Assembly: GCA_028711655.1 (NCBI GenBank)
Contig: JAQTRU010000007.1
Span: 1-40,884 of the forward strand
DNA length: 40,884 nt
Source of the DNA: Patescibacteria group bacterium
GTDB lineage: Bacteria > Patescibacteriota > Patescibacteriia > Patescibacteriales > JAQTRU01
Direction: 5' to 3'
Shown piece after piece: positions 1,030 through 37,135 of this stretch; within the stretch, counting starts at the first letter, position 1, and each line of letters opens with the position of its first letter. A program made the position numbers and the translations under genes. The notes beneath the pieces were generated by a model. The model was not told the origin of the DNA. It worked only from the letters and a program-made list of their open reading frames with translations, and made no database searches.

Positions 1030-3576
1030 ATGTTAACCCTGGACACGGACATAATAAATATCAGCCGCGTGGGCAAAACCACGGCTAAATATTTAAATAA
1101 ATTGGGTATAACGACGGTGCGCGATTTGCTTTTTTATTTCCCTTTCCGCTATGATGATTTTACCCATTTAACGCCTATTGATAAGCTTCAGTCTGAAACC
1201 AGCGCTAATATTGTCGGCCGGATTGAACTGATTCAAAATAAAAAGAGTTGGCGGAGAAGGATGTATATCACGGAAGCGCTAATTACTGATGATACGGAAA
1301 CCTTAAAAGTTATTTGGTTTAACCAGCCCTTTATCGCCCGCAACCTACAAGTTGGCGATAAGGTTTCTTTAGCAGGAAAAATAGAAGAAGACGCAAGCGG
1401 TTTGGTTATGAAATCTCCTACCTATGAAAAAATTGCCGGCCAGCAAGGTTTTCATACCCAAGGTCTGGTGCCTAATTACCACTTAACCGCCAATCTCACG
1501 CAAAAACAAATAAGATTTCTTATTAAACAGATTATCGGCGCAGCGAAACAGATATCTGATTGGCTGCCGCCTGACATGAAAAAAAATCTGCGACTCTTTG
1601 ATTTAAGCGAGGCTATAGCCAAAATCCATTTCCCGAAAACAAAAACCGAAATTGAAACTGCGCGAAGACGCCTATCCTTTAATGAACTTTTTATAATCCA
1701 GCTCCAGTCCCAACTCGTAAAAAAAGAGCTTGAAGCAAGCCAAGCTAAGCCAATTCCCTTTTCAGAAGAAACTACAAAAAAATTCGTCAATTCCCTGCCC
1801 TGGGCATTAACTGACGCTCAGCGAAAGTCTGCCTGGGAAATTCTTAAGGATATAGGCAAAGACAAACCGATGTCTCGGCTTCTTTCCGGAGACGTTGGCA
1901 GCGGCAAAACGGTTGTTGCCCTAATTGCCATGCTTAACGTTGCCCTAAATAATTATCAAGCAGTCTTGATGGCGCCAACGGAAATTTTGGCCCATCAGCA
2001 TTACAGCACAATTTGCCAACTGTTGAGTAATTTTGACGTTAAAATTGGTTTAATAACTGGAAGCGAAAAAAGGGCGAATTATGAATTAGGAATTAAGAAT
2101 CAGAAAGAAAATAAAAAGATGAAAACCCCTGATTCCTTATTCTTAATTCATAATTCAGATATTATTATCGGCACGCATGCCTTAATCCAGGAAAAGATAG
2201 AATTTAATAATTTGGGGCTAGCCATAATTGACGAACAACATAGATTCGGTGTGGAGCAAAGAGCTGCGCTCTTAACGCGGACCTATGCGGACCGGCGGGG
2301 ACCTATGCGGACCGGCGGGGAGGAAGCGGAAGATGAGGGGAAATTGTTGTATGAAAAAATTACTTATAAAATCAGAGGGGCGATTTTTAATGTTAAAAAA
2401 CAGTTGGGTTTGGGGCATAAAGAAGTAATTTATCAAAAGGCCTTGGAAAAAAAATTTGAAAAAGTTGGATTATCTTTTACTAAAGAAAAATCTATTGAGA
2501 TAAAATATGATGATAAAAAAATTAGCATCTACAGACCTGACTTTATCATCGATGATAAAGTTATTTTAGAAATAAAAAAACTGCCCTTTATCGGGAAATT
2601 TGAAAAGCAACAAGTCTGGCATTATCTGAAAGGCTCTGAATATAAACTAGCTTTGTTAGTTAATTTCGCAAATAATGATGTTCAAATTGAACGTTTTGTT
2701 GACACGAAAAAGTCCGCATCAGTCCGCCAAAGTCCGCATCAGTCCGCGCTTAGTCCGCATTTACTGTCAATGACCGCCACGCCTATCCCCCGCTCTTTGG
2801 CCCTGGCTTTGTACGGCGATTTAGACCTTTCTATTATCAACCAGCTGCCGAAGGGCAGGAAGCCGGTTATGACGAAAATTGTGCCGGAGGAAAAAAGAGA
2901 AAAGGCTTATGCTTTTATCAGACAGCAGATAGATAGCGGCCGCCAGGTATTTGTCATCTGCCCTTTAATCGACCATTCTGATAAGCTTGGAGTAAAATCC
3001 GTAAAACAGGAATTTGAAAAGCTGGATAAACAAATTTTTCCTGATTTAAATATCGGCATTTTGCACGGTCGGATTAAGCCGCCGGAAAAAGAAAAAATTA
3101 TGCGGGAATTCCTTGATAATAAAATTAAAATCCTGGTCTCCACTTCAGTCGTGGAGGTCGGAGTGGATGCGCCAAACGCCGCGATTATGATGATTGAAGG
3201 CGCGGAACGTTTCGGCCTGGCCCAGCTTCACCAGTTTCGCGGCCGGGTCGGACGAAGCCAGCATCAATCTTATTGCTTTCTTTTCACGGAAAACTCGGCT
3301 GACAAAACCTTAAAACGGCTAGAGACGCTGGTAAATTGCCAGGACGGCTTCACTCTGGCAAAAATGGATTTGAAATTCCGGGGCGCGGGCGAAATTTACG
3401 GCACGGCCCAAAAGGGCTTCCCTCAATTAAAAATCGCCTCTTTATTTGACTATAAACTGATGAAAGAGGCGCGGGAGGAAGCGATAGAAATTATAAATAA
3501 AGACCCCGGTTTAAAAAATTATCCTTTACTGGCGGAAAAATTAGGAGATTGGGAAAAAAGCGTCCATCTAGAGTAA
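1030..3576 (+). CDS. recG: ATP-dependent DNA helicase RecG with an inserted GxxExxY domain
   Basis: RecG remodels stalled forks and branch-migrates Holliday junctions. The N-terminal wedge/OB part covers about residues 1-250. The helicase core follows: Walker A GDVGSGKT (287-294), DEQH box DEQHRFG (401-407), motif III TATPIPR (582-588), and the arginine-finger motif QFRGRVGR (735-742) near the C-terminal RecG-specific TRG region. The length is 848 residues against about 690 usual. The excess is explained by a 161-codon in-frame insertion between motif II and motif III (residues about 416-576) that encodes a complete GxxExxY protein; removing it leaves 687 residues. All core motifs are present on both sides, so the product may still be active, with the insert looping out or being removed in an unknown way. 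The ATG at 1030 matches the family N-terminus; no strong ribosome-binding site is visible. Confidence 0.93.
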   Translation: MLTLDTDIINISRVGKTTAKYLNKLGITTVRDLLFYFPFRYDDFTHLTPIDKLQSETSANIVGRIELIQNKKSWRRRMYITEALITDDTETLKVIWFNQPFIARNLQVGDKVSLAGKIEEDASGLVMKSPTYEKIAGQQGFHTQGLVPNYHLTANLTQKQIRFLIKQIIGAAKQISDWLPPDMKKNLRLFDLSEAIAKIHFPKTKTEIETARRRLSFNELFIIQLQSQLVKKELEASQAKPIPFSEETTKKFVNSLPWALTDAQRKSAWEILKDIGKDKPMSRLLSGDVGSGKTVVALIAMLNVALNNYQAVLMAPTEILAHQHYSTICQLLSNFDVKIGLITGSEKRANYELGIKNQKENKKMKTPDSLFLIHNSDIIIGTHALIQEKIEFNNLGLAIIDEQHRFGVEQRAALLTRTYADRRGPMRTGGEEAEDEGKLLYEKITYKIRGAIFNVKKQLGLGHKEVIYQKALEKKFEKVGLSFTKEKSIEIKYDDKKISIYRPDFIIDDKVILEIKKLPFIGKFEKQQVWHYLKGSEYKLALLVNFANNDVQIERFVDTKKSASVRQSPHQSALSPHLLSMTATPIPRSLALALYGDLDLSIINQLPKGRKPVMTKIVPEEKREKAYAFIRQQIDSGRQVFVICPLIDHSDKLGVKSVKQEFEKLDKQIFPDLNIGILHGRIKPPEKEKIMREFLDNKIKILVSTSVVEVGVDAPNAAIMMIEGAERFGLAQLHQFRGRVGRSQHQSYCFLFTENSADKTLKRLETLVNCQDGFTLAKMDLKFRGAGEIYGTAQKGFPQLKIASLFDYKLMKEAREEAIEIINKDPGLKNYPLLAEKLGDWEKSVHLE
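2275..2757 (+). mobile_element. GxxExxY module inserted in frame in recG, with inverted-repeat arms
   Basis: The insert spans 483 bp (161 codons). Its core, about RecG residues 438-562, reads as a full GxxExxY protein, a family assigned to the PD-(D/E)XK nuclease fold. It has an N-terminal LLYEKITYKIRGAIF helix, the signature GHKEVIYQ, the PDFIIDD-x3-LEIKK segment carrying the likely D..ExK active residues, and the closing LVNFANNDVQIERF strand. The left arm (about 2276-2320) contains a 20-bp unit in tandem. The right arm (about 2710-2760) contains three AGTCCGCAT copies. The reverse complement of the right arm aligns with the left arm, so the ORF is framed by inverted repeats. There is no ATG of its own in frame; a TTG at the LLYE start could serve. 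It is related in family to the free-standing ORF at 28361-28744. Confidence 0.85.
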
Positions 3577-4176: not shown

Positions 4177-4229
4177 AAAGGGCTGAAGATTTACTGACCG
4201 GTAGTAAATCCAAAGCCCTTTTATTTTTT
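4177..4229 (+). terminator. Rho-independent terminator, shared by convergent genes
   Basis: AAAGGGCT (4177-4184) pairs with AGCCCTTT (4214-4221), and GATTTACT (4188-4195) pairs with AGTAAATC (4203-4210), with a small internal loop and a 7-nt apex. The T-rich tail TTTTATTTTTT follows. It ends the unit starting at 3610. On the other strand the same stem lies just after the glycosylase stop codon, but with a poorer U tract. Confidence 0.85.
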
Positions 4230-4847
4230 AGAAATAAACTCATTGCCCCTTATATAAAACCGCCATTTTTCATCCTTATACCTTCCCGCGTAGTCAACGC
4301 CAATTCTTTTTGTTTTAACTATTTTCGGTTTTTCATCTTTGATGCGGCTCTCAATCCAGAGGCCGTATTTTTTTACATAAATAGGTAGACTATTGAAAGA
4401 TTTATCTACACCTAAAGCTTTTGTCAGTTTAGCTGGTCCATTCGTCAGTAAGCTCTTATTTTTTGCCTTGTTATGTGTTTTATGTTTTATGTTACATGAT
4501 ATAGCTCTGATTAAAACCGCGGCCGGATAATCTTTTTCTTCTGTCACGATATTTAACATATAATGCATGCCGTAAGTAAAATAAACATAAATTTTGCCCG
4601 GTCCGCCAAACATTACGCTGTTTCTTTTTGTCCGGCCCCGGCTGGCGTGAGAAGCTAAGTCCCTCGGCCCGTTATAAGCTTCTACTTCCACAATTTTACA
4701 TCTTAGAGTGCTCTCCCCTCTCCCGCGACGCGAGGAGCGGGGGAGGGGTCGGGGGCGGGGGTTTTTCCTTACCAAAAAACAGCCCAAGAGATCTTGGGCA
4801 ACTTGTAGCGTATTTTTATTATAAAAAGATTTTGGCAAAATTCTCAT
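4221..4847 (-). CDS. DNA-3-methyladenine glycosylase (AAG/MPG type)
   Basis: Removes alkylated purines from DNA in base-excision repair. Family hallmarks are an N-terminal LPKSFYNKNTLQVAQDLLGC, the KIVEVEAYNGPRDLASHA block with the catalytic glutamate region (VEVEAY), RTKRNSVMFGGPGKIYVYFTYGMHYMLNIVT with the DNA-intercalating tyrosine segment, and a NGPAKLTKALGV substrate-pocket motif. The start is set at the second Met (4847), closest to the family N-terminus; a Met three codons upstream (4856) lies in repeated DNA. Between strands FLVRK and CKIVEVEAY is an extra stretch of about 20 Arg/Pro/Ser-rich residues, encoded by a 12-bp-stem palindrome inserted in frame. This probably makes a surface loop. 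The gene is convergent with the + strand unit at 3610-4229. Confidence 0.92.
   Translation of the reverse strand: MRILPKSFYNKNTLQVAQDLLGCFLVRKNPRPRPLPRSSRRGRGESTLRCKIVEVEAYNGPRDLASHASRGRTKRNSVMFGGPGKIYVYFTYGMHYMLNIVTEEKDYPAAVLIRAISCNIKHKTHNKAKNKSLLTNGPAKLTKALGVDKSFNSLPIYVKKYGLWIESRIKDEKPKIVKTKRIGVDYAGRYKDEKWRFYIRGNEFISKK
4704..4763. repeat. Palindromic element inserted in frame in the glycosylase gene
   Basis: CCCCTCTCCCGC at 4715-4726 pairs over all 12 positions (one G-T) with 4737-4748 around a 10-nt loop, followed by a G-rich tract to about 4761. Translated on the - strand it gives the extra loop of residues about 32-52 (counted from the Met at 4856), absent from ordinary family members. 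Confidence 0.7.
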
Positions 4848-4874
4848 ATCACGCATCTCATATCGCTAATCGCA

Positions 4875-5225
4875 TTATATCTTACTTAATGTTCCCCATA
4901 ACATTCCGCCTATTTTATCAGCCAATTGCGATAAATTTTCGTAATCATTTCTGGCAATATAATTCTAGGTATAAGAAAAGTAGATTAAATATTCCGACTC
5001 TTTAAGCGAGCCATAAGCAATTTCTAGAAAATTCTTGTACACTTTGCAATCCGCCCCTCTTCTCCTGGCAAAGCCTTCTGTGTAATTAAGTATGACAGAA
5101 AGTACGGCTCGACGTAGCTGTGAAGTCACGCCATGCAATTCATCTCTAGGAAAATTTTTAGTTATTTTATAAACATACTTAACATATTGATGCATTAAAT
5201 TTTTTAATTCTACATGAAAATCCAT
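4875..5225 (-). pseudogene. Four-helix-bundle protein (23S rRNA IVP/S23 family), broken by an in-frame amber stop
   Basis: The first 86 codons (5225 down to 4968) encode a typical four-helix-bundle start with MHQYVKYVYKITKNFPRDELHGVTSQLRRAVLSV and NYTEGFARR, ending at TAG (4965-4967). The same frame continues without shift for 29 codons (NYIARNDYENLSQLADKIGG...) to TAA at 4875-4877, completing the usual length of about 116 residues. The simplest reading is a single nonsense mutation. The family occurs as intervening sequences in 23S rRNA and as solitary genes; its function is not settled. The gene is bordered by the inverted word arrays at 4843-4874 and 5234-5295. Confidence 0.75.
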
Positions 5226-5233
5226 GTAATTAC

Positions 5234-5295
5234 TATGCGTTACGCGTTATGCGATATGCGATATGAGATATGAGATATGCGTTACGCGATACGCG
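5234..5295. repeat. GCGATATG/GAGATATG word array overlapping the radA 3' end
   Basis: A run of short units (GCGATATG, GAGATATG, GCGTTACG) extends into the last codons of radA. A degenerate inverted version occurs at 4843-4874, so the pair frames the four-helix-bundle pseudogene. The reverse complement of 4843-4874 shares the stretch GCGATATGAGAT with this array. Confidence 0.65.
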
Positions 5296-6658
5296 CTAGG
5301 CGACCAACCATTTCTTCCAAATTTTTTATTTTTATCAGCTTTAATTTTTTTGCCTTCACCTGATAATCCGGAACCATCGCCTGGACAAACCCTAATTTTT
5401 CCGCTTCCGCCAATCTCTGTTCCGGTTTGGAAACATTGCGCACTTCCCCGCCCAGGCCAACTTCGCCTAAAACCAAAGTTTTTCTGTTAATAACCTGATT
5501 AAGAAGGCTGGAAGTTATAGCTAGGCAAACCGCTAAATCCAGGGCCGGGTCATTAACTCTGAGGCCGCCGACAACGTTTAAAATTATATCCTGATTCAAA
5601 AGATTGACTTTGGCCCTCTTGGTCAAAACCGAGGCCAAAACCTGCAGCCTATTTAAGTCAAATCCGGAAGATTTCCTCTGCGGATAACCAAAAACCGTTT
5701 TGGTCACCAGAGCTTGAATTTCAACCAGAAAAGGGCGGGTGCCTTCCAAAACACTGCTGATAACCGAACCGGTTATTTTTTGTCCGCTAGTTTCTATAAA
5801 AACCGCTCCCGGGTTGGCAATCTCAGCAAAACCCGAACCGGTCATTTCAAAAACTCCCAATTCATTAACAGAGCCAAAACGATTCTTTATCGCCCGCAGC
5901 ACGCGATAATTATTGGCGGCTTCCGTTTCCAAATAAATCACGGTATCAACAATATGCTCCAAAGACTTCGGACCGGCGATTTGGCCGTCCTTGGTTATAT
6001 GGCCGACCAAAATAATGGCAATATTATTCTCTTTGGCGATTTCTAAAAATTTTACGGCCGAAGCTCTGATTTGATTAAGACCGCCGGCTTCGGCTAAAAC
6101 ATCGGCCGAATAGACCGCCTGGATTGAATCAATAATAACTAAAATAGGCTTCAGGGCTACAATAGTGGCTATGGCTTTTTCCACGTTAGTTTCGCTGATA
6201 AATTTAATTTTTTCCAAATTGCATTTTAACCTGGCTAGACGCGCTTTAATCTGGCCGGCTGATTCCTCGCCGCTAAGGTAAATAACATCGCCGCGGTTTG
6301 AGCCAACGGCATCGGCCAGCTGGGCAACAATCGTTGATTTGCCAATCCCCGGTTCGCCGGCGAGCAAAACCAGGGAGCCGGGCACAACTCCCCCGCCCAA
6401 AACCCGATCCAACTCGGAAATATTTGTCCTAATCCTCTCCAGCCCGTTTTCCCTTATTTTATTCAAATCAATAATTTCCGCCTGGCTTATTTTTTTTTCT
6501 TCCGCCTTCCCGCCAAGGCGATAATCAATTTCTTTCTGCTCCAGGGTCTGCATTTTCAAAGTCCCCCAAGAGCCGCATTCCAAACAACGCCCGCTCCACT
6601 TGGAAAATTGGGCGTCGCAATTTGAACAAACGTAAATATTTTGAGTTTTGTTCGACAT
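5282..6658 (-). CDS. radA: DNA repair protein RadA (Sms)
   Basis: RadA is a RecA-related, Lon-like ATPase that promotes branch migration in recombination and, in competent bacteria, after DNA uptake. Visible parts in order: an N-terminal C4 zinc finger (CSNC and CLEC in residues 11-30), Walker A GEPGIGKST (about 106-114), Walker B (VIIDS), the RadA-specific KNRFG motif, and a C-terminal Lon-protease-like domain (NVVGGLRVNDPALDLAVCLAI; VLGEVGLGGEVRNV). The 458 residues are normal for the family. It lies 6 bases downstream of the DsbA-like gene, so the two are probably co-transcribed. The last codons merge into the repeat array at 5234-5295. Confidence 0.97.
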   Translation of the reverse strand: MSNKTQNIYVCSNCDAQFSKWSGRCLECGSWGTLKMQTLEQKEIDYRLGGKAEEKKISQAEIIDLNKIRENGLERIRTNISELDRVLGGGVVPGSLVLLAGEPGIGKSTIVAQLADAVGSNRGDVIYLSGEESAGQIKARLARLKCNLEKIKFISETNVEKAIATIVALKPILVIIDSIQAVYSADVLAEAGGLNQIRASAVKFLEIAKENNIAIILVGHITKDGQIAGPKSLEHIVDTVIYLETEAANNYRVLRAIKNRFGSVNELGVFEMTGSGFAEIANPGAVFIETSGQKITGSVISSVLEGTRPFLVEIQALVTKTVFGYPQRKSSGFDLNRLQVLASVLTKRAKVNLLNQDIILNVVGGLRVNDPALDLAVCLAITSSLLNQVINRKTLVLGEVGLGGEVRNVSKPEQRLAEAEKLGFVQAMVPDYQVKAKKLKLIKIKNLEEMVGRLARIA

Positions 6659-22990: not shown

Positions 22991-23389
22991 CTATTTTTTT
23001 ATTCTCGATTTTTTATTCCTATCCTGGCTTTTCAAATAACGAATGTATCCATTAATTCCTTTAATTAGCTCCGTGTACTTATCATCAACAAAAGTAGCCA
23101 TTTTTTTACTGATAAATCCTTTCTTAAAAGCCTTTCTCATACCAGCCTTAGTTTCACCGGCTTCGCCTCTGGCAATATACATTCTATTAATTTTGTCTCC
23201 GTAAGAATATCTATTATAGCTTTCGGAAATGTTATCCGTAGTTGAAGAAGAGGACCTCCTTAATTGATCAACGCTTCTATATTTTTCGTCTTTGGGGAAT
23301 TTTTCGGTTACCCTATGAATAAATATTTCTAATCTTTCAGATAATTTATAAATTTCCAAATTCTCCAACCCTCCCTTCATACTTATCAT
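22991..23389 (-). CDS. Four-helix-bundle protein (S23/IVP family)
   Basis: A 132-residue solitary member of the family also found as 23S rRNA intervening sequences: NLEIYKLSERLEIFIHRVTEKFPKDEKYRSVDQLRRSSSSTTDNISESYNR, then the GEAGETKAGMRKAFKKGFIS helix and a basic tail. The Met at residue 4 (23380) is an equally good start. It is intact, unlike the relative at 4875-5225. Repeats of the GTGCATTAGGG family flank it on both sides, suggesting it moved in, or is maintained, together with them. Its function is not established for the family. Confidence 0.85.
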   Translation of the reverse strand: MISMKGGLENLEIYKLSERLEIFIHRVTEKFPKDEKYRSVDQLRRSSSSTTDNISESYNRYSYGDKINRMYIARGEAGETKAGMRKAFKKGFISKKMATFVDDKYTELIKGINGYIRYLKSQDRNKKSRIKK

Positions 23390-28234: not shown

Positions 28235-28304
28235 AATCGTCAGCACCACTGAATAAACACTGAAAGCACATGAATATACTGAATTATACATAACTACATA
28301 AAAA

Positions 28305-28359
28305 CATCAGTGCAATTCAGTGAAATCAGTATGTTTTAGTGGTCCAGACTTTCAGTGAT
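28305..28359 (+). repeat. 55-bp direct repeat, left copy, beside GxxExxY gene
   Basis: 47 of 55 bases match the right copy at 28753-28807, and all eight differences are transitions. Built of TTCAGTG/AATCAGT words. Further left (about 28245-28290) lie inverted versions of the same words (CACTGAA). Confidence 0.8.
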
Positions 28360-28360
28360 A

Positions 28361-28744
28361 CTATTTAATAAACCTTTTTACCTCTAACTTTTTTGCTCCA
28401 AAATTTATAAGTAAACCAATTTTCACTTTATAAGCTTCAATATAATTCATTAATTGGGCTATATGGACATCTTCTAATTTCGATAAAGCCTTTAATTCAA
28501 CCATAATATCGCCATCTACCAAAAAATCAACTCTTCTCTCGCCAATTTTTAATTCCTTATAGAATATTGGCATCTCCCTTTCCCTTTCAAACCTCAAACC
28601 CAACTCATTAAACTCAAGCTGCAATGCCCTTTGATATATAACTTCCTGAAATCCTGTACCTAAAAAATTATGCACCTTATAAGCGCCTTGAATTATTTTC
28701 GCGGTGATATCTGATTTGTAATATCTATTATCAACATAATTCAT
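28361..28744 (-). CDS. GxxExxY protein (PD-(D/E)XK-like)
   Basis: 127 residues: an N-terminal ITAKIIQGAYKVHNFLGTGFQEVIYQ with the family signature GFQEVIYQ, FEREREMPIFYKELKIG, then the candidate active-site strand pair RRVDFLVDGDIMVELKAL (D..ExK) and LMNYIEAYKVKIGLLINFGAKKLEVKRF. The fold is assigned to the PD-(D/E)XK nuclease superfamily, but the biological role is unknown. It is the free-standing relative of the module inserted in recG. A 55-bp direct repeat lies on each side (28305-28359 and 28753-28807), as expected of an inserted unit. It sits between the giant protein gene and the secretion block. Confidence 0.9.
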   Translation of the reverse strand: MNYVDNRYYKSDITAKIIQGAYKVHNFLGTGFQEVIYQRALQLEFNELGLRFEREREMPIFYKELKIGERRVDFLVDGDIMVELKALSKLEDVHIAQLMNYIEAYKVKIGLLINFGAKKLEVKRFIK

Positions 28745-28752
28745 AAATGAAT

Positions 28753-28807
28753 CATCAGTGTAATTCAGTAAAATCAGTGTGCTTCAGTGGTTTAGACCTT
28801 CAGTGAT
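28753..28807 (+). repeat. 55-bp direct repeat, right copy
   Basis: Matches 28305-28359 (47/55). It ends 10 bases before the stop codon of the giant gene. With the left copy it brackets the GxxExxY ORF. Confidence 0.8.
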
Positions 28808-28816
28808 TTCAGTGAT

Positions 28817-31800
28817 CTACTTCTCCGTTACTTTTACCGTCCCGCTAAATGTCCCGCTAGCGCCATAGCCCCAATTATCCTTGATTGTTATTTTTGGTTT
28901 TACACTGCAGTAGTTGCCTTCTTCGTCTGCCGCGCAGGTTATGCCATCACCATCTTTATCCTTATTCCTTAAATCCCAATAGCTGTACAAGTGATAAACC
29001 GAATGCGGATTTTTTTCATCCGGCCGATGATTCATCTCCACTCCGGAAACAACCGTAGTCCCGCCGTCGCCCCAGTCAATTTCGTATCTGACCAATGGCA
29101 ACTGGTTTGGATTTACAGCCGTGTTAAAAGTTAAATTGGCGAACCCATTTTTGATAATCGTCGTCTCGCCTGTTTCTGCACCATTGGCTTTTATATGGCT
29201 TACAATGGGATCAGTGCAATTTATATACTCTCCGCTTATTGTCTTCCCGCAAACATCGCTCGATTTCCAGTTAGGAAAAGTATTGTCCGGAATATATCGG
29301 CCAGCACTCGCTTCAGCCGTGCGACCAACTTCCTCTTCTGAACATACAACGCCAGCATTTGATCCCCCAACACAAACATATCGATCCCTAGTCTCTGCTC
29401 TACACGTTCCGGTCCCGGTATCAGGACCGCAGCACCTTAGATTGTTATTGCTAGTAGCATCTTGTACTCTCCTAACCTCTACGCAAATGTCATTGGGGTC
29501 TACACATCCCTGGCTATTGCCACCAAGATTGCAAGCTATGCCGTTTCTGGGCCCTCCGACACATTGGGGCGTAATACATGCTCCATAAGTAGTGGAAATG
29601 CCGCAAGGCCAATAAGCTGCTGTGCATACGCCATCATTACTTGGGCAATCACCGTCGCCATAACAAGGACCGTTATTGTTAGCCCCCCCGCTACATGTGC
29701 CGGCAGGGCATGAACCGCCTGGACAATCACCAGGATCATCGCAAACATCATTATTATTATCCCCCCCACTGCATCTGCGTTCAGAACAGGTTCCATCAAT
29801 GCCATTACAAATTGTATCACTGGCGCTACAATCAGCTCCGATATTTCTTTCTCCACCTACGCAGGTTTTTGATTTCAAACAATTTGGATCTTGCGGACCG
29901 CTGCAAGTCAAATTATTATTACTGCATTTCATAATCGGGCAATCCGGATTAGAATATTCACAAGCTTTTCCCGCATTAACTCCTTCGGCGCAGACGTTAC
30001 TGCAAACGCCACCATAGCAGCAATCATCGCCTGAACCAGGGGTTGCACTCGTGGTTGAATCGCATTTATATTCTCCGGTTGAATTGCAGTTCGCTATCGT
30101 ATCAATACCTCTTATATCACAAGAAGCTCTTTCTTGGGGATTGGAATTCTCGCATTTGCCCTCTGCTGTACACGAACTTTCAGGAACGCAGCAGGCCAAC
30201 CCATTCGGTAATCCATTGCAGGTATACATATTCAGTTCGGCATTAAGCGAACACTTAACGCCACTGGCGCACCCTGTCAGAGAACAGTCCTGGGCGTAGT
30301 TTACCGAATTGCTTGCGCAAGAATAAACAATATCAGAGGTAAGACTTTTAGAGCAAACGCCGCCGCCAAGACAGGTTTGCTCCGGAACTAATTTATAACC
30401 GCCATAACTTTGGGCAAAAAGCCTTTTTAATTCGCCCGTATCTCCATAATTATTTTCAATAGCATCTTTATCATTATGTAATTGCCCCATTCTAGGTAAT
30501 TTTTTATTCTCGCTGTAATAAAGAGGCTGGATGCCCTCATCCATCCTGGTGTCCCATTCATAAGGATTGGCCGCTGGATTTGGGTAAACAATTGTGCCAA
30601 AAGGTGGGGCATCGCTACTATAGTAAGCCTTACCACCCGTGTAACCAGGAACACCAGCAAAGGTGTTAACGAAGAAATTACTATCTCCTCCGCTTAATCT
30701 GGTTTGGAAGACTTTGTTGTCTCCGGCCGCAGAAACCGTTTGCACAAATTTCTCGCAAACCGGCTTAATGTCAATAATCGTCCGGCAAACAACCGTTGTA
30801 CGTTCTAAATATTGATCACTGGGCCAAATACCCTCGGCACCATAAATGCTAGCGACATCCCCTATCTTAGACGGCTTCACCCAGGCTAATTGATCATTAT
30901 ATTCATACCCAAGCGTAAATATGCCTTTGCCCGTATTGGGATTCCTGTCATAGCCGACGGGTTCAACGGCACAACGCCAACCATATTTTTCATCAGTTGA
31001 GGTAACTACGGGGTCCATATAAGCCGAATTAACGGATTCTATGCTGGCCGCCACATAACCTGTTTTGGGACCGTTATAACCATATAAAACAACCGCGTGC
31101 TTGCCAGCCAAATATTCCTTTTTGGTTATTTTTTCATCTAGATCGCCATTTTTGACGCCGTGTGCAATCCAATCGGCATTACTGCCATCACCATCTATAT
31201 AAATCCAAACTTTATCATCGGCCACAACCTTAACCTTTAATTTTGTCCCCTCCGTCAAATCGGTGCAATAATAAAGCGGAAACTTTCCTTGATAACCCGC
31301 GCCTTCCTCAATGCCTTCGCCCCTTACTTTGTCAACCGGATACCACATCAAACAAGCGTCAGGCGAGCCCGGAGCCCGGTCATATTCCAGACAATAGCCG
31401 GTCAAACCTTTTTGGCTTACTCCGGACCCATCCATATAATCGCAAGACAGGGAATCTTCTTTTGGGTAAAGCCGGCAAGATTGCCTGGAATAAATATCTT
31501 CTTTTGTTTCCAATACCGGCTTTATTTTTATGTCGTCAAAATAAGCCACCCCGCCAGTCGCGCCTGAAGAAACTGTAATTTTCCTCCTTATCGCCGCTCC
31601 TAAAGAAAACTCCTTGGTAAAATATCTACTATTACCAGGCAAAATCTCTAATCTTGTACCATCAGGCAAGCTTATGCTTACGTTCCCGCCTGATAAATTC
31701 ATTGTATTAACATAAGCGCTAATAATATAAGTTTTTGCTTCAAAATCAATCTCCTCACTAGTAATTGAATTCCCGGAACTCATCTTTAAAATATTTCTGC

Positions 31801-34800
31801 CTTCGGGCGGGGAAAATCCCAAAGCGGCTTTGGCTTCGGCCGCGTTGGTAATCACTTTGAACATGCTGTCGTTCCAGGTGCTACCGCTGGTGTTGCTCCA
31901 GCCGACCGGATAACCGTTGCCCCCGGACATTTCAAATCCGCCATTAGACAGGCTGATTATGTCCCCGACCTGCTCCATTCCGCCTATCGGATAATAATTA
32001 TTGCCCAATTGCCCGCCATCGTAACCGAATTTGGAATAACCGGTTAAATTAGCGATAATGCCCGGATCATCTCCGGACTTAAATATCTGCGGCGCTTTGG
32101 TTGAGGCGATAAAATTGCCGCAATTGCCGCTATCGTCAAAAGCGTTGCAAAGCCCGACATCAAAGCAGATATTATTATTATCTTTATCTTTAACATAACT
32201 GCGGCAAGCCAGCCACTCGGCGCAAACCCGGTTCGGCGAAACCTTTATCAGGGCATTGGCGTTATTGTCGCTCCCGCTTTCCGGCGGCACTCCGTTTCCG
32301 TCGTCAATAGTCAAATTCGCGTCAAACTTTAATCCGGCTAAACCGCTTCCGCCTTCCTGAATGCGCTCATTAAATAAGACGCACCCTCTCTCAAAATCAA
32401 CCAAGCCGTTGCAGGATGTTTTGTCCAGTTCTTGATTTAACCTATATTCCGCTATGGCTTTCCTAAGGTTAAATTCTCCCGCGCTTTCGCAGATATTTCC
32501 GCCGGAGGAACCGCCGAGAGAATCATTGAAAAATATAATTGAATCAGTGCCGGAAACGCTGATTGAATTTACGGGATTGCCCAGGCTATTATCGCTTTTT
32601 AATTCGCGCAAAGTTGCCTTGGAACAGTTTATTGAATTGGTTTCGGCCCCGATTCCTTTTAATATGTAAAGAGTGGATAGCTCAAGGTTAACTTGATTGT
32701 CGTTTTTATAATTCGCGCTCGCGGCCGGCCGGCTTATCGGGTCAATATATTCGCTACAGCCGGCCTGCGCCGCGGAGCAGATTCCGACCCAGCCGTTATC
32801 CGGCTGATAAATAGTCTGGCCTTCTCCGCCGTAACCAAAAGTTTTTAATTCGCTGGTTAGGCAGAGAGTATCAGCCGTCTCCAAAACGCAGGTCTGCCCG
32901 ATAGCGCAGTTTTTGTCAGACAAGCAAACCGTCCCCGCGCCGTTACATCTCTTTACTTTCTTCTGATACCAGCCCCAGCCGATTTCGCCGGTTGCCTGCC
33001 GCCACTCGCAGACCATGTCCCCCGGGTCCTTAAAGAAGGAATTGCCGCTTTCCGAAGACCAGGCGGCGCAGCCCTCGCTTTCTTCGTCGCATAAAATTCT
33101 TGTGTACCTGTCCGGATTATTTTTCAGATAAACATCGCCATAAACCACTTCGTCTCCGTATTTATAAGGCGAACCGAAAAGGCCGCAGCCCTTATCCGCC
33201 CGGTTGCATTGCTTATTTTTGTCATAAACCGCGTAAGCAAAACTGTCCGCGGGCACAGACACGGCCGGATCAGTAGCGGAAGTATAAACTCCGGCCTGGC
33301 TGGAATTATGGGTATCAATCATTAATTCACAGCCCACGGCCGACTCCTGGCAGAGTTGGCTAAAACTGCGGAGATAATGCGTATTTTTCGCCCGGTCTTG
33401 ATATTGGCCGCAACCCAGCATATACAAAGGAAAAGGATTGCTATTTATGTCCTGGTTGCAGGAAGCCGGCGTTACCCAGGAATCTTTTATCAAATAATGG
33501 CGGGCTACGATTTCTGTTAACCTAATGTCATCAATATAGAAATTGCTGTTAGCCACAATTTCTAATTTTTCCTCAACGTCAACTTCGCGCTCAAGGCTGG
33601 CCAGATTAAATTTATAGAGTTTCCATTCGCTTTCCAAATTTCCTCCGGAAATGGGAAAAGATTGCTTGTCACCGTCTTTGACAAAACTGATAGAGCTAAA
33701 TTCAGCCGCGGCTGTTCCTTTCTTTTTGGCAATAAAGCTTAATACGTAGGACTTGCCCTTCCCAACAGAGGCGCCAACCACTTTGCTGGTGGAATTGCCG
33801 GTTGTTTCCAAAGAATGGCCGCCGACAGTAAGGGCTTCGCTGCTGATGCTTCCCGACCATCCCTGAGCGCCTCCTTCAAAATCATTGTTTAAAACAATCC
33901 GCATATTGCTCCCCATATTGCCGCTATACTCGCGGCAGCCGTTTTGGCTGGCCGCGCAAGCTTTGCCTTCGCCCGGAATAGCCATATAAATCTCCGAGTC
34001 GGCTGTCCGGCGATAAGGATGGCAATTATCACTGCAGGAAATTGTTTTTGTGTATGAATGATAGGAAATTCCGCCGGCTTTGTTATAGAATTGGCGGCAA
34101 TCCGAATTATAGCCCAGGTCGGTTGCCGGCAGATTATAAATCGCCTCGCCGCATTCGGAAGTATCATCGCTGGTAATAGCCGGCTCGCTTCCACTCGCTT
34201 TCAAATTAAAAACTTTTAATTGGTAGCCGCTTTCCTCGCTTCCCTCCCAAGTATAAAATTCAACGCAATTGGCGCCCGCATCAGTGGGTTTTACGCATTG
34301 CCTTAAATAAGTGTAATATTCTCTGCCCTCCCCGCCTCGGGTCACCTCGTCTAAATTGGTAAATTCATCGCAGCCGGCAGCGGCAGCCGGGCAGGTCCGG
34401 GCCGATTTGGGGATAAAATATTCGGCCTGGCTTCCGGAAAAATTGGTTGCCGCCTGAATATAATTGTCAAAACCGTCGCATTCGGCCGGGCAATAATCGG
34501 TTACCGTGGTTTTGGCCGGAATGCTTATTTTGTCAGTGACCGAAGTATAAAATTCGCAGCCGACATCGGATGCTCCGCAGAGATTGGCAAATCCTCCGCA
34601 ACGGGCCGGCGGATTAGCGGCCTGGCACTCCAAATAAGCCGGAGCCAATTTTTCATAGATAACATTAGCCGCCCCGTATTCTTTATAAGCCGTGGCTCCG
34701 GTTCCGATTTCAAACTGGATATTATCAATATAAAAATCAGCCGCGCCATAGCCGTAAATATAGAATTCATTGGCCGCTAAATTTCCGTCATTATTAACCG

Positions 34801-37135
34801 ACAAGGCCAGCCTTTCCCAGGAGCCGGTTCTTGTTAAAACAGCTTCTCTGAATTGAGTGTTGTTGTTGCCAATGCCCAGTTTTAAGCTGGTCCCGCTTTT
34901 TAAATAAACATAAGCGCTTAAAGTATAAGCCACCCCCGGTTCCATAATAAAGCCCTTGGGAATTACGGATACGTTGCTATAAGCGCTGGAAGAATGGTCA
35001 TAAGAATATAAACCGCCGTTGCCGCCGCCCATTGTGATACGCAAAATGTTTCCTGATCGGCCTTCGGCGCCGTTGGCAATCTCGGCCTGCAGATTGGAGC
35101 CGCCGCCGCCCAAATACAAAGGCCAGTTGTTTAATTTAACCGTGCCGCCCGAAGAAGCAATGGAGGCTTTGTCGCCCACCGTATCGTTTTCAAACCCGGA
35201 ATTTACAACCAAGTTCGTGCCTAAACCGGCCTTGGTTCTGATAAATTCATGGCAGCCTTCGTTTTCCCGGCTGCAGGTTTCAATATTTTTATTAAAATAA
35301 ATCGGGTTGGCGCCGGTCCAGCTTATAGAAGCGCTCCCAAAGTCATAATTGGCGGGTGTGGCGTACCCCTTGCAGCCGGCGCTCCCGGCCGAACAGCCGC
35401 TATAATCCAAAGTGTTTTCTAGATAAGAAATAGTTTTGCCGTCAGCGGCCCGGAAAGTCTGGCAAGTATTATATTTCGGGTCGCAGGAGGCGGCGCTAAA
35501 ATTCCAAGTCCGGCGTTCCTCTGCGCAATAGCCGTAGGCCTCGCAAGAGCCGTCGCTCTTTTCCTTGATGCAGCTTTGTTCGTCCCCGCAATAATTGTCG
35601 TTTCGGATAATCATTCTTTCTTTGCCGCCTTCGCCATCGTCAACTATCTCATCAGAAACTATTTCCGGCCCGTAGCCTTCCTTGGCGCAAAAATTCTGCG
35701 GCGCTTTCAAAACCCAGTTCGGGTCAACCAGTCCTTCGCACCATTCTTCATGAAAACCAAAGTAAGAATCGTTCGGGTCAAAACAGGCCACCATTTTCGC
35801 CAAAGTGGCGTTTTTCAATTTTTCCTGATTAGAATGGATATATTCCGCCGCCAGCTCCCAGCCCACCGGAATAATCCGGTATTTTCTTAAAATAAGCATG
35901 GACCGGTAAGGATAGCCCTGATTATACACCGGCTCAATGGCGCTTACGCCGACTGACCTGAAGCCAAAAGGCCAATCTTTAAGATATCCCAAACTCAAGG
36001 CCTCTCCTACTGTTTTTCTCTCCTCTATGGCCTGCCTGAACCCCTCGTCAATCACGCACCCGTTTGTTGGCGCGTATCCGCCCATTTTGTTGCAGGACGA
36101 CAAAATCGCTAAAATATCATAATCCGCTCTGGTATCAAAACTTGGCTCCAATAATTTTCTTAAAGATTCGTTGTCGCCGGAAATAGGGCTGGCTTCATAA
36201 TCAGCCAGCCCGCCCCAATCTCCGCTATAAGGGGAAGAGGCCGGGCCGGTTCCTTTGGTTAATTTTTTCATCAAATCATTAAACTTCGTAATCGCCAACT
36301 GGTTTAAAAAAACGTTCGCGGCGTCAACCAAGGCATCGCCGGTAAAATTGGTTAAATTGCTGGAAAAAGTGCTGCGCACGGCATCAGCCTGCTTTTCTCC
36401 CTCCCCAGGAGGCGTTTCCGTTTTGCCGGCAATATTCCTCAAATCCAGCCAACCTCCTTTTGACTCCAATTCCGATTGGGCCTTGGTCTTCTTGGCCTGC
36501 TGGTCCGCTATAATTTCTGTCTGTAAAGTAAGGGCCACTCCCAAGTCGCTTTGCGCCGGATTAAAAACCGCCTGAAATCTCTGCAAAAAATCCGGCCGGC
36601 GCAATTCTTCTTCCCAATTATTTTTCATTTCGCTCCAGGTGCAGGTTGGAGGCCTTGGCCTTTGCTGTTGATATAAACCCAGCCCTATTCTCATTTTTAT
36701 GTCAAAATCCGGTTCGCATAAATCAAAATTCCACTTCCTTCCCAATTGCTCTATAAACTCTCCCCCGGCCTGGTCAGCCACATTTTCTAAATAAGAACCC
36801 CAACTTTCCGTAACAAATAAAGGCTTCCGCCCCCTTCCGCCAGAGCCCAAATAGGTGGCGGTATCATAAGCGATTGTATTCAAAGCATTCCGAATCGCCG
36901 CCTGGAAAGCGGCTGAACCGCCTTTTTGCCAAAGTATCAGTAAATTGTTCCATACTACATCTCTCCAAAAACTCTTTTCCCGTTGCGCTGCCGCTACCGG
37001 ATCCACAAACTGAGCGTAGGCTGGTTTAATTTTAAAAGAAAAAGAAGTGAATATAAATAAAAAAATAAGAAAACCAACAATGAAAGAGGAAATATTTTTA
37101 TTATACTTATTTATTTTCCCTTTTTTGAAAAACAT
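28817..37135 (-). CDS. Giant secreted cysteine-rich protein with CBM-like and PKD-like domains
   Basis: 2772 residues. A basic start and hydrophobic signal segment (about residues 18-41, ending PAYAQ) lead to a helical N-terminal domain (to about 480). Then: (1) about 570-1470 carries nine copies of C-x5-G-C (CSAGSAGC, CSRENEGC, CGASDVGC, CPAAAAGC, CAASQNGC, CQESAVGC, CNRADKGC, CDEESEGC, CSAAQAGC), mostly followed by an aromatic residue; (2) three jelly-roll, CBM4/9-like domains at about 640-805 (VVNSGFEN...FYIDNIQFE), 1080-1206 and 1730-1868 (YFDDIKIK); (3) a PA14-like stretch near 2000 (VVADDKVWIYIDGDG); (4) a second Cys array at about 2260-2615 with CxGGxNNxxxC...DCPGGxC units; (5) a PKD-like C-terminus (YEIDWGDGG, VYHLYSYWD). 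It is exported and disulfide-rich, and a surface fibre or adhesin is the likely role. It is next to the secretion block; no homologue is named with certainty. Confidence 0.85.
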   Translation of the reverse strand: MFFKKGKINKYNKNISSFIVGFLIFLFIFTSFSFKIKPAYAQFVDPVAAAQREKSFWRDVVWNNLLILWQKGGSAAFQAAIRNALNTIAYDTATYLGSGGRGRKPLFVTESWGSYLENVADQAGGEFIEQLGRKWNFDLCEPDFDIKMRIGLGLYQQQRPRPPTCTWSEMKNNWEEELRRPDFLQRFQAVFNPAQSDLGVALTLQTEIIADQQAKKTKAQSELESKGGWLDLRNIAGKTETPPGEGEKQADAVRSTFSSNLTNFTGDALVDAANVFLNQLAITKFNDLMKKLTKGTGPASSPYSGDWGGLADYEASPISGDNESLRKLLEPSFDTRADYDILAILSSCNKMGGYAPTNGCVIDEGFRQAIEERKTVGEALSLGYLKDWPFGFRSVGVSAIEPVYNQGYPYRSMLILRKYRIIPVGWELAAEYIHSNQEKLKNATLAKMVACFDPNDSYFGFHEEWCEGLVDPNWVLKAPQNFCAKEGYGPEIVSDEIVDDGEGGKERMIIRNDNYCGDEQSCIKEKSDGSCEAYGYCAEERRTWNFSAASCDPKYNTCQTFRAADGKTISYLENTLDYSGCSAGSAGCKGYATPANYDFGSASISWTGANPIYFNKNIETCSRENEGCHEFIRTKAGLGTNLVVNSGFENDTVGDKASIASSGGTVKLNNWPLYLGGGGSNLQAEIANGAEGRSGNILRITMGGGNGGLYSYDHSSSAYSNVSVIPKGFIMEPGVAYTLSAYVYLKSGTSLKLGIGNNNTQFREAVLTRTGSWERLALSVNNDGNLAANEFYIYGYGAADFYIDNIQFEIGTGATAYKEYGAANVIYEKLAPAYLECQAANPPARCGGFANLCGASDVGCEFYTSVTDKISIPAKTTVTDYCPAECDGFDNYIQAATNFSGSQAEYFIPKSARTCPAAAAGCDEFTNLDEVTRGGEGREYYTYLRQCVKPTDAGANCVEFYTWEGSEESGYQLKVFNLKASGSEPAITSDDTSECGEAIYNLPATDLGYNSDCRQFYNKAGGISYHSYTKTISCSDNCHPYRRTADSEIYMAIPGEGKACAASQNGCREYSGNMGSNMRIVLNNDFEGGAQGWSGSISSEALTVGGHSLETTGNSTSKVVGASVGKGKSYVLSFIAKKKGTAAAEFSSISFVKDGDKQSFPISGGNLESEWKLYKFNLASLEREVDVEEKLEIVANSNFYIDDIRLTEIVARHYLIKDSWVTPASCNQDINSNPFPLYMLGCGQYQDRAKNTHYLRSFSQLCQESAVGCELMIDTHNSSQAGVYTSATDPAVSVPADSFAYAVYDKNKQCNRADKGCGLFGSPYKYGDEVVYGDVYLKNNPDRYTRILCDEESEGCAAWSSESGNSFFKDPGDMVCEWRQATGEIGWGWYQKKVKRCNGAGTVCLSDKNCAIGQTCVLETADTLCLTSELKTFGYGGEGQTIYQPDNGWVGICSAAQAGCSEYIDPISRPAASANYKNDNQVNLELSTLYILKGIGAETNSINCSKATLRELKSDNSLGNPVNSISVSGTDSIIFFNDSLGGSSGGNICESAGEFNLRKAIAEYRLNQELDKTSCNGLVDFERGCVLFNERIQEGGSGLAGLKFDANLTIDDGNGVPPESGSDNNANALIKVSPNRVCAEWLACRSYVKDKDNNNICFDVGLCNAFDDSGNCGNFIASTKAPQIFKSGDDPGIIANLTGYSKFGYDGGQLGNNYYPIGGMEQVGDIISLSNGGFEMSGGNGYPVGWSNTSGSTWNDSMFKVITNAAEAKAALGFSPPEGRNILKMSSGNSITSEEIDFEAKTYIISAYVNTMNLSGGNVSISLPDGTRLEILPGNSRYFTKEFSLGAAIRRKITVSSGATGGVAYFDDIKIKPVLETKEDIYSRQSCRLYPKEDSLSCDYMDGSGVSQKGLTGYCLEYDRAPGSPDACLMWYPVDKVRGEGIEEGAGYQGKFPLYYCTDLTEGTKLKVKVVADDKVWIYIDGDGSNADWIAHGVKNGDLDEKITKKEYLAGKHAVVLYGYNGPKTGYVAASIESVNSAYMDPVVTSTDEKYGWRCAVEPVGYDRNPNTGKGIFTLGYEYNDQLAWVKPSKIGDVASIYGAEGIWPSDQYLERTTVVCRTIIDIKPVCEKFVQTVSAAGDNKVFQTRLSGGDSNFFVNTFAGVPGYTGGKAYYSSDAPPFGTIVYPNPAANPYEWDTRMDEGIQPLYYSENKKLPRMGQLHNDKDAIENNYGDTGELKRLFAQSYGGYKLVPEQTCLGGGVCSKSLTSDIVYSCASNSVNYAQDCSLTGCASGVKCSLNAELNMYTCNGLPNGLACCVPESSCTAEGKCENSNPQERASCDIRGIDTIANCNSTGEYKCDSTTSATPGSGDDCCYGGVCSNVCAEGVNAGKACEYSNPDCPIMKCSNNNLTCSGPQDPNCLKSKTCVGGERNIGADCSASDTICNGIDGTCSERRCSGGDNNNDVCDDPGDCPGGSCPAGTCSGGANNNGPCYGDGDCPSNDGVCTAAYWPCGISTTYGACITPQCVGGPRNGIACNLGGNSQGCVDPNDICVEVRRVQDATSNNNLRCCGPDTGTGTCRAETRDRYVCVGGSNAGVVCSEEEVGRTAEASAGRYIPDNTFPNWKSSDVCGKTISGEYINCTDPIVSHIKANGAETGETTIIKNGFANLTFNTAVNPNQLPLVRYEIDWGDGGTTVVSGVEMNHRPDEKNPHSVYHLYSYWDLRNKDKDGDGITCAADEEGNYCSVKPKITIKDNWGYGASGTFSGTVKVTEK

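Follow-up and report, generated by a model that had tools for sequence, protein, structure and literature searches.

Selfish nuclease-encoding elements that reside inside genes are thought to need hiding: introns are spliced from RNA, and inteins from protein. Homing endonucleases of the PD-(D/E)XK or related types (for example the I-Bth0305I catalytic domain and I-Ssp6803I) are selfish nucleases that re-enter a conserved target, and are found in introns, in inteins or free-standing. To our knowledge, no unspliced in-frame nuclease element has been described. Rickettsia palindromic elements (RPEs) are palindromic DNA located in frame in protein genes, and encode no enzyme (Ogata et al, 2000, reviewed in PMC10969869). 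Two further families are relevant here: solitary GxxExxY proteins (TIGR04256/PF13366), which are encoded by separate ORFs between genes, and the S23 (IVP) proteins of 23S rRNA intervening sequences, whose ORF lies in an inverted-repeat element. In the searchable literature, mostly without subscription papers and preprints, almost nothing beyond a passing mention is said of GxxExxY function. We also found no report of an in-frame insertion, an intein or a LepA insert in Patescibacteria/CPR in that literature, and novelty is accordingly provisional.

Here we analyze a 40,884-nucleotide contig of a Patescibacteria group bacterium (the window), whose recG gene contains an in-frame GxxExxY nuclease domain flanked by inverted repeat arms, and the clade of similarly embedded domains to which it belongs. 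Like the RPEs, which are palindromic selfish DNA, the embedded elements sit in frame in unrelated protein genes (nine host protein families), have inverted arms, and are apparently translated with their hosts. Compared by description, RPEs are ~150 bp long and encode only a peptide, whereas the window insert is ~480 nt long with a nuclease domain under selection; the embedded family also differs in its tandem locus-specific arm units, its horizontal spread between distant lineages, and its recurrence at identical sites. Inteins share with it an in-frame position near conserved motifs of essential proteins, a nuclease domain, a sporadic distribution and horizontal transfer, but the embedded element has no splicing domain, carries another nuclease family, and occupies tolerant loops. 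We detected no intein match among eight Pfam families, and the arm-encoded junctions vary, with no conserved Cys/Ser...Asn recognizable by eye. At Rfam gathering thresholds, no group I, group II or other known intron was found in the window recG or four other embedded loci. The embedded family resembles homing endonucleases in its recurrent site occupation (26 RecGs and 28 LepAs) and in the incongruence between insert and host, and its domain is a weak structural match to I-Bth0305I; unlike them, it has no stop codon of its own, often no ATG, and no splicing shelter. Solitary GxxExxY elements belong to the same domain family and also lie between inverted repeat arms, but the embedded clade is inside other proteins. 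S23 elements of the source genome have a similar arm architecture; they encode another protein family and lie between genes, not inside proteins.

The original prediction, made from sequence without database searches, held that a complete GxxExxY module sits in frame inside RecG, and profile searches bear this out. Pfam identifies RecG wedge, DEAD, Helicase_C and RecG_dom3_C domains split by PF13366 (PDDEXK_3; residues 443-555, E=2.4e-28, 99.3 bits against a cut-off of 22), and NCBIfam identifies the RecG equivalog in two stretches plus TIGR04256 (E=1.2e-30, 106.3 bits against a cut-off of 35). The frame is unbroken, the wedge, helicase and C-terminal domains of the host are complete with motifs II and III intact, and the insert contains both the G..E..Y motif (as GHKEVIYQ) and the D...ExK (PD...ExK) segment noted earlier. 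Given these E-values and the further in-frame embedded copies found elsewhere, the insert is no chance match. The predicted numbering of motifs II and III, with the domain between them, also agrees with ours, and the span proposed for the module, 2275-2757, matches the element including its arms, which had been overlooked and which we found by inspecting the DNA (Table 1).

Table 1. Features of the window recG and of a solitary GxxExxY element
Feature	Position (nt)	Strand	Evidence
recG host ORF with in-frame insert, 848 aa	1030..3576	+	ORF list, Pfam, NCBIfam
Helicase motif II, DEQHRFG (aa 401-407)	2230..2250	+	translation
Left arm, tandem ~10-nt units GCGGACC(TAT/GGC), complementary to right arm	2276..2315	+	DNA inspection
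Core GxxExxY PD-(D/E)XK nuclease domain, 119 aa	2344..2700	+	profile match, alignment, model
GHKEVIYQ motif of GxxExxY domain	2413..2436	+	alignment
Catalytic D (2539-2541), E (2569-2571) and K (2575-2577)	2539..2577	+	alignment of embedded copies
Right arm, AGTCCGCATC/AGTCCGCCAA units, inverted relative to left arm	2711..2757	+	DNA inspection
Helicase motif III, TATPIPR (aa 582-588)	2773..2793	+	translation
Solitary GxxExxY element (ORF match 28370-28711) with TTCAGTG-unit arms, between co-directional genes	28302..28816	-	profile search, arm inspection

The whole insert thus consists of an arm, a 119-aa core and a second arm, the left arm encoding a disordered linker, TRTYADRRGPMRTGG, and the right arm the linker SASVRQSPHQSALS. 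Host Pro-His codons (CCGCAT, 2755-2760) extend the last right-arm unit; these codons often form the outermost arm unit in RecG inserts, making CCGCAT a possible pre-existing half-site. Congener RecGs are ~697 aa long (stop-to-stop frames of 700 and 699) with a native linker of 12-13 aa between motifs II and III, so the net excess in the window RecG is ~151 aa, and not the 161 codons first estimated; ~10 native linker residues (KTLMEKSGETETT in a congener) were also replaced by the insert. Removal of the insert, expected to restore a normal RecG, does leave the gene in frame, but excising exactly 161 codons would yield a slightly short linker. Elsewhere in the same gene, at ~2078-2162 (aa ~350-378), we observed a second in-frame inverted repeat, ORF-less (AATTATGAATTAGGAAT...AATCAG / CTGATTCCTTATTCTTAATTCATAATTC); it reads NYELGIKN...LFLIHNS, and NYEL...FIIHNS-like stretches occur in the RecGs of many members of the order.

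Comparison with relatives indicates that the insert is a recent arrival. The window RecG is 82-88% identical to those of two insert-free congeners over both RecG parts, and in a RecG tree built without the insert it nests with insert-free congeners with a support of 100. No other RecG with the insert was found in a search of 60 genomes (its own and 59 relatives; 58 with matches), and across the order (111 genomes, 100 with matches) the window RecG is the sole carrier. A second RecG with the insert (locus L103) gives a parallel case: its congener G369 is insert-free, with the two RecG sides 93% and 99% identical. For LepA, the insert of carrier G124 was absent in seven relatives searched, four of them from its family. 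The absence from sister lineages anticipated in the original prediction therefore holds, and insert-free congeners, absence across the rest of the order and the L103/G369 contrast rule out an old RecG domain native to the clade. Embedded copies from many independent genomes likewise rule out an assembly artefact.

A class-level search with the insert (381 genomes) returned its best matches inside other proteins: a RecG (L103, same linker), a LepA (L104), a glycosyltransferase (L105) and a LeuRS (L106), all matching the window insert across exactly 119 aa at 62-66% identity. We then scanned GTDB (one genome per species, 84,980 species) with GHKE-type peptide patterns, which favor similar inserts and so inflate insert identity, and found 75 loci, 65 of which lie in frame within frames >230 aa; "embedded" is here defined by the open frame. 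With the window and L103 the embedded copies total 67 (genes L104-L106 recur in the scan as L143, L147 and L144): 28 in RecG, 29 in LepA, two each in LeuRS, glycosyltransferases and P-type ATPases, and singletons in GatB, a transketolase, an NDH-2-like protein and an O-antigen-ligase-like protein. All RecG inserts, including the 26 from the GTDB scan, lie in the linker between motifs II and III; besides the window RecG, carriers of the domain are sporadic among RecGs (these 26 plus L103). In LepA, 28 of 29 lie between switch I and G3, with L146 at another position. Carriers are Patescibacteria where record titles give a phylum; many titles say only "bacterium", and one MAG (L164) is labelled Nanoarchaeota. 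We found no phage relatives of the insert in a viral_contigs scan, and an apparent 1680-aa fusion in G075 was explained by a run of N.

In a tree of 138 domains, which has few columns and many unresolved forks, the embedded copies fall in one clade of 69 rows (SH-aLRT 92) inside solitary GxxExxY diversity, with two solitary rows nested within it (L194 and L196, each with its own ATG). The embedded versus solitary state requires three changes on this tree, and RecG/LepA hosts switch at least five times. As judged from these sequences, the same clade of domains resides in frame in nine host families of Patescibacteria. One locus, L136, carries two GxxExxY domains from different clades. In other GxxExxY clades, arm-like linkers join the domain in frame to RecJ at its C-terminus (two genomes) and to MurB at its N-terminus (L234, L236, L235), and these terminal fusions look like intermediates between solitary and embedded forms. 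A transketolase half (L191) has a second site with expanded arm-type repeats and no nuclease (TRTDANLTRTNANN...), apparently an in-frame arm-only derivative.

The relationships of the inserts differ from those of their hosts. The nearest inserts to that of the window (L131 and L132) are 78% identical to it, in RecGs only 41-51% identical to the window RecG; together with the presence and absence of the insert in L103 and G369, this argues for horizontal movement of the domain and repeated entry into the same sites. The correlation between host and insert identity is weak, with a Spearman coefficient of 0.46 for RecG and 0.10 for LepA, and host and insert have the same nearest neighbor in 8 of 26 RecGs and 7 of 26 LepAs; short inserts make the neighbor test noisy, and ascertainment by insert pattern biases insert identity upward. 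These comparisons show that the domain has, by sequence, moved horizontally and repeatedly occupied the same sites in RecG and in LepA. At RecG, whose linker is hypervariable and has lost some native residues to the insert, we could define no clean target-site duplication; in a single case, a solitary element at ligA/gatC (L004 versus G002), a clean empty site suggests a 3-bp GAT duplication. Arm-only stretches in the RecGs of L014, L017 and L018 look like candidate scars of earlier occupation.

To the DNA of the arms, an inverted-arm score assigns a median of 19 for embedded loci versus 9 for controls (55 of 66 above the control 95% level), and of 25 versus 12 for the GxxExxY loci of the order (32 of 35 solitary loci above the control 95% level of 17). 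The arm unit YRCNRAH ([CT][AG]C[ACGT][AG]A[ACT]) has a strongly fixed orientation, 258:34 upstream and 254:37 downstream (reverse strand) in embedded copies, and 137:36 and 132:36, respectively, at solitary loci, indicating that the arms carry an orientation-fixed DNA motif. Embedded arms have periods of 10 and 21 nt, ~1 and 2 helical turns; orientation and period suggest that the arms may be recognized as DNA, with 21 nt also equaling seven codons. In the domain frame, embedded arms are free of stops and translate into hydrophilic TQTNAD- and SASSPRQSA-type linkers, whereas the other frames contain 0.55-2.2 stops per 60 nt. In 30 of 65 embedded copies there is no ATG within 30 codons upstream.

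The predicted active site is kept under purifying selection. In 66 embedded copies, the catalytic Asp is conserved in 65, and the Glu and Lys in all (GHKE, which the scan pattern required, is no evidence of conservation). Median pairwise dN/dS is 0.21 (335 pairs with dS 0.2-2, mostly near saturation). A confident model of the domain (pLDDT 90, pTM 0.83) has a PD-(D/E)XK-type fold; Foldseek matches it to Cas4-like SSO0001, lambda exonuclease, a Holliday-junction resolvase and I-Bth0305I, all at the superfamily level with TM <= 0.52, and found no close structural homologue beyond that superfamily. When RecG is modeled in full, the predicted structure shows the insert as an independent domain (442-557), joined through low-confidence, disordered linkers (419-438 and 560-572) that are the arm-encoded stretches.

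We count eight GxxExxY copies in the source genome (1.1 Mb, 75 contigs), including the RecG insert and a solitary one in the window, which is adjoined by a 2772-aa ORF at 28817-37135 (-). Among solitary loci (L001, L003-L008, L068-L130), both neighbors were identified for 58 elements; 52 lie between co-directional genes, and all 52 point in the same direction as those genes (p=4e-16, an optimistic value as the loci are partly orthologous). Random insertion would place half of them in the direction of the genes; either only transcribed copies survive selection, or transcription is required for insertion, and these operon-dwelling relatives seem to depend on host transcription. Empty-site comparison with congeners shows that solitary elements vary in presence and absence, and the L006 site in G001 holds an ORF-deleted derivative with both arms left. 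In the ATP synthase operon, the atpD/atpC junction (L008, L047, L098) is a hot spot for insertion: G000 has a GxxExxY element there, G001 a hairpin that lacks an ORF and is built of other units, and G002 a NUDIX-like gene.

S23 (PF05635) has 19 copies in the source genome, one of them at 23048-23365 (-) of the window. Most of the eleven S23 copies examined have inverted repeat arms like those of the GxxExxY elements: one element architecture is common to these two unrelated protein families. A further four-helix S23 (23S-rRNA-IVP) ORF at 4842-5298 of the window (match 4896-5201, -) has an internal TAG and inverted period-7 arrays (TATGCGA/TATGAGA); it is intact in G002 with similar arms, and in G001 is replaced by a different S23 with different arms. 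The neighboring DNA-3-methyladenine-glycosylase-like gene (4221-4856, -) has a palindromic-looking repeat (NPRPRPLPRSSRRGRGESTLR) in frame, and the S23 arm seems to extend its N-terminus, MRDMRIL.

We propose that the insert is probably an unspliced selfish element that encodes a nuclease and is translated with its host, comparable to an autonomous RPE with homing-like behavior. It would be translated within RecG as one polypeptide, in which the arms would supply flexible linkers for an additional surface domain, and RecG would still work despite it. More speculatively, the nuclease may cut insert-free alleles so that repair copies the element in, as homing endonucleases do; alternatively its substrate may be arm-derived branched or cruciform DNA, and the arms may serve as its recognition or resolution sites. 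Having no stop of its own and, in many copies, no ATG start, the embedded clade would rely on host translation; in passing from the solitary to the embedded state, an element that already lived on the transcription of its host would come to exploit host translation too.

The main rival holds that the nuclease is cargo with another role, and that the arms, RPE- or MITE-like, are moved by other machinery or by natural transformation and homologous recombination. The ORF-less arm-only derivatives at the L006 site in G001 and at the L008 site, the many small nuclease-free in-frame repeats in the RecGs of the order, and the nuclease-free S23 elements with the same arm architecture all fit this idea. 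Deletion derivatives, however, require no mobility of their own, and a cargo role sits poorly with catalytic residues kept in 65-66 of 66 embedded copies and with the return to the same RecG and LepA sites in distant lineages, which resembles site-directed homing; we consider it unlikely.

The original prediction offered two readings, a tolerated mobile ORF or a helicase-nuclease fusion. Since the same clade occurs in LepA, LeuRS, GatB, a copper-type ATPase, a transketolase, glycosyltransferases and others with no common function, we favor the former. A useful fusion, with the nuclease adding an activity such as junction processing to RecG as in other helicase-nuclease proteins, would suit the action of RecG on branched DNA and the weak profile match of the insert to T7 endonuclease I, a junction nuclease (3cae, E=0.018), but is very improbable given this host range, the sporadic presence between congeners, and the differing insert and host relationships. 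Least probable of all is removal after transcription or translation by an undescribed intron, arm-driven translational bypass or undescribed protein splicing: the arms can pair and bring the flanks together, and the sites adjoin highly conserved motifs as inteins and introns prefer, but all 67 copies are in frame on both sides with arms whose freedom from stops is confined to the domain frame, which would serve no purpose in a removed segment, there is no intein domain or Rfam intron, and the sites are insertion-tolerant linkers with a variable native sequence. Apart from the nested solitary L194 and L196, no out-of-frame copy of the embedded clade turned up in the scan, and this absence is what informs, an open frame being part of how embedded copies were defined.

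The insert and its relatives seem to hide in the open, tolerated as one more domain of enzymes such as RecG, LepA and LeuRS. More tentatively, with the question close to evenly balanced, such protein-resident homing elements may form a categorically new class: nuclease-encoding, with no promoter, stop or splicing of their own, derived from operon-dwelling, repeat-armed GxxExxY elements and persisting as translated, tolerated domains of essential proteins. The family is a test of how much insertion essential proteins can bear, its 119-aa domain is a candidate new set of small site-specific nucleases, and its behavior points to a possible first function for GxxExxY proteins. Mobile DNA may also underlie large "inserts" and "fusions" in Patescibacteria annotations.
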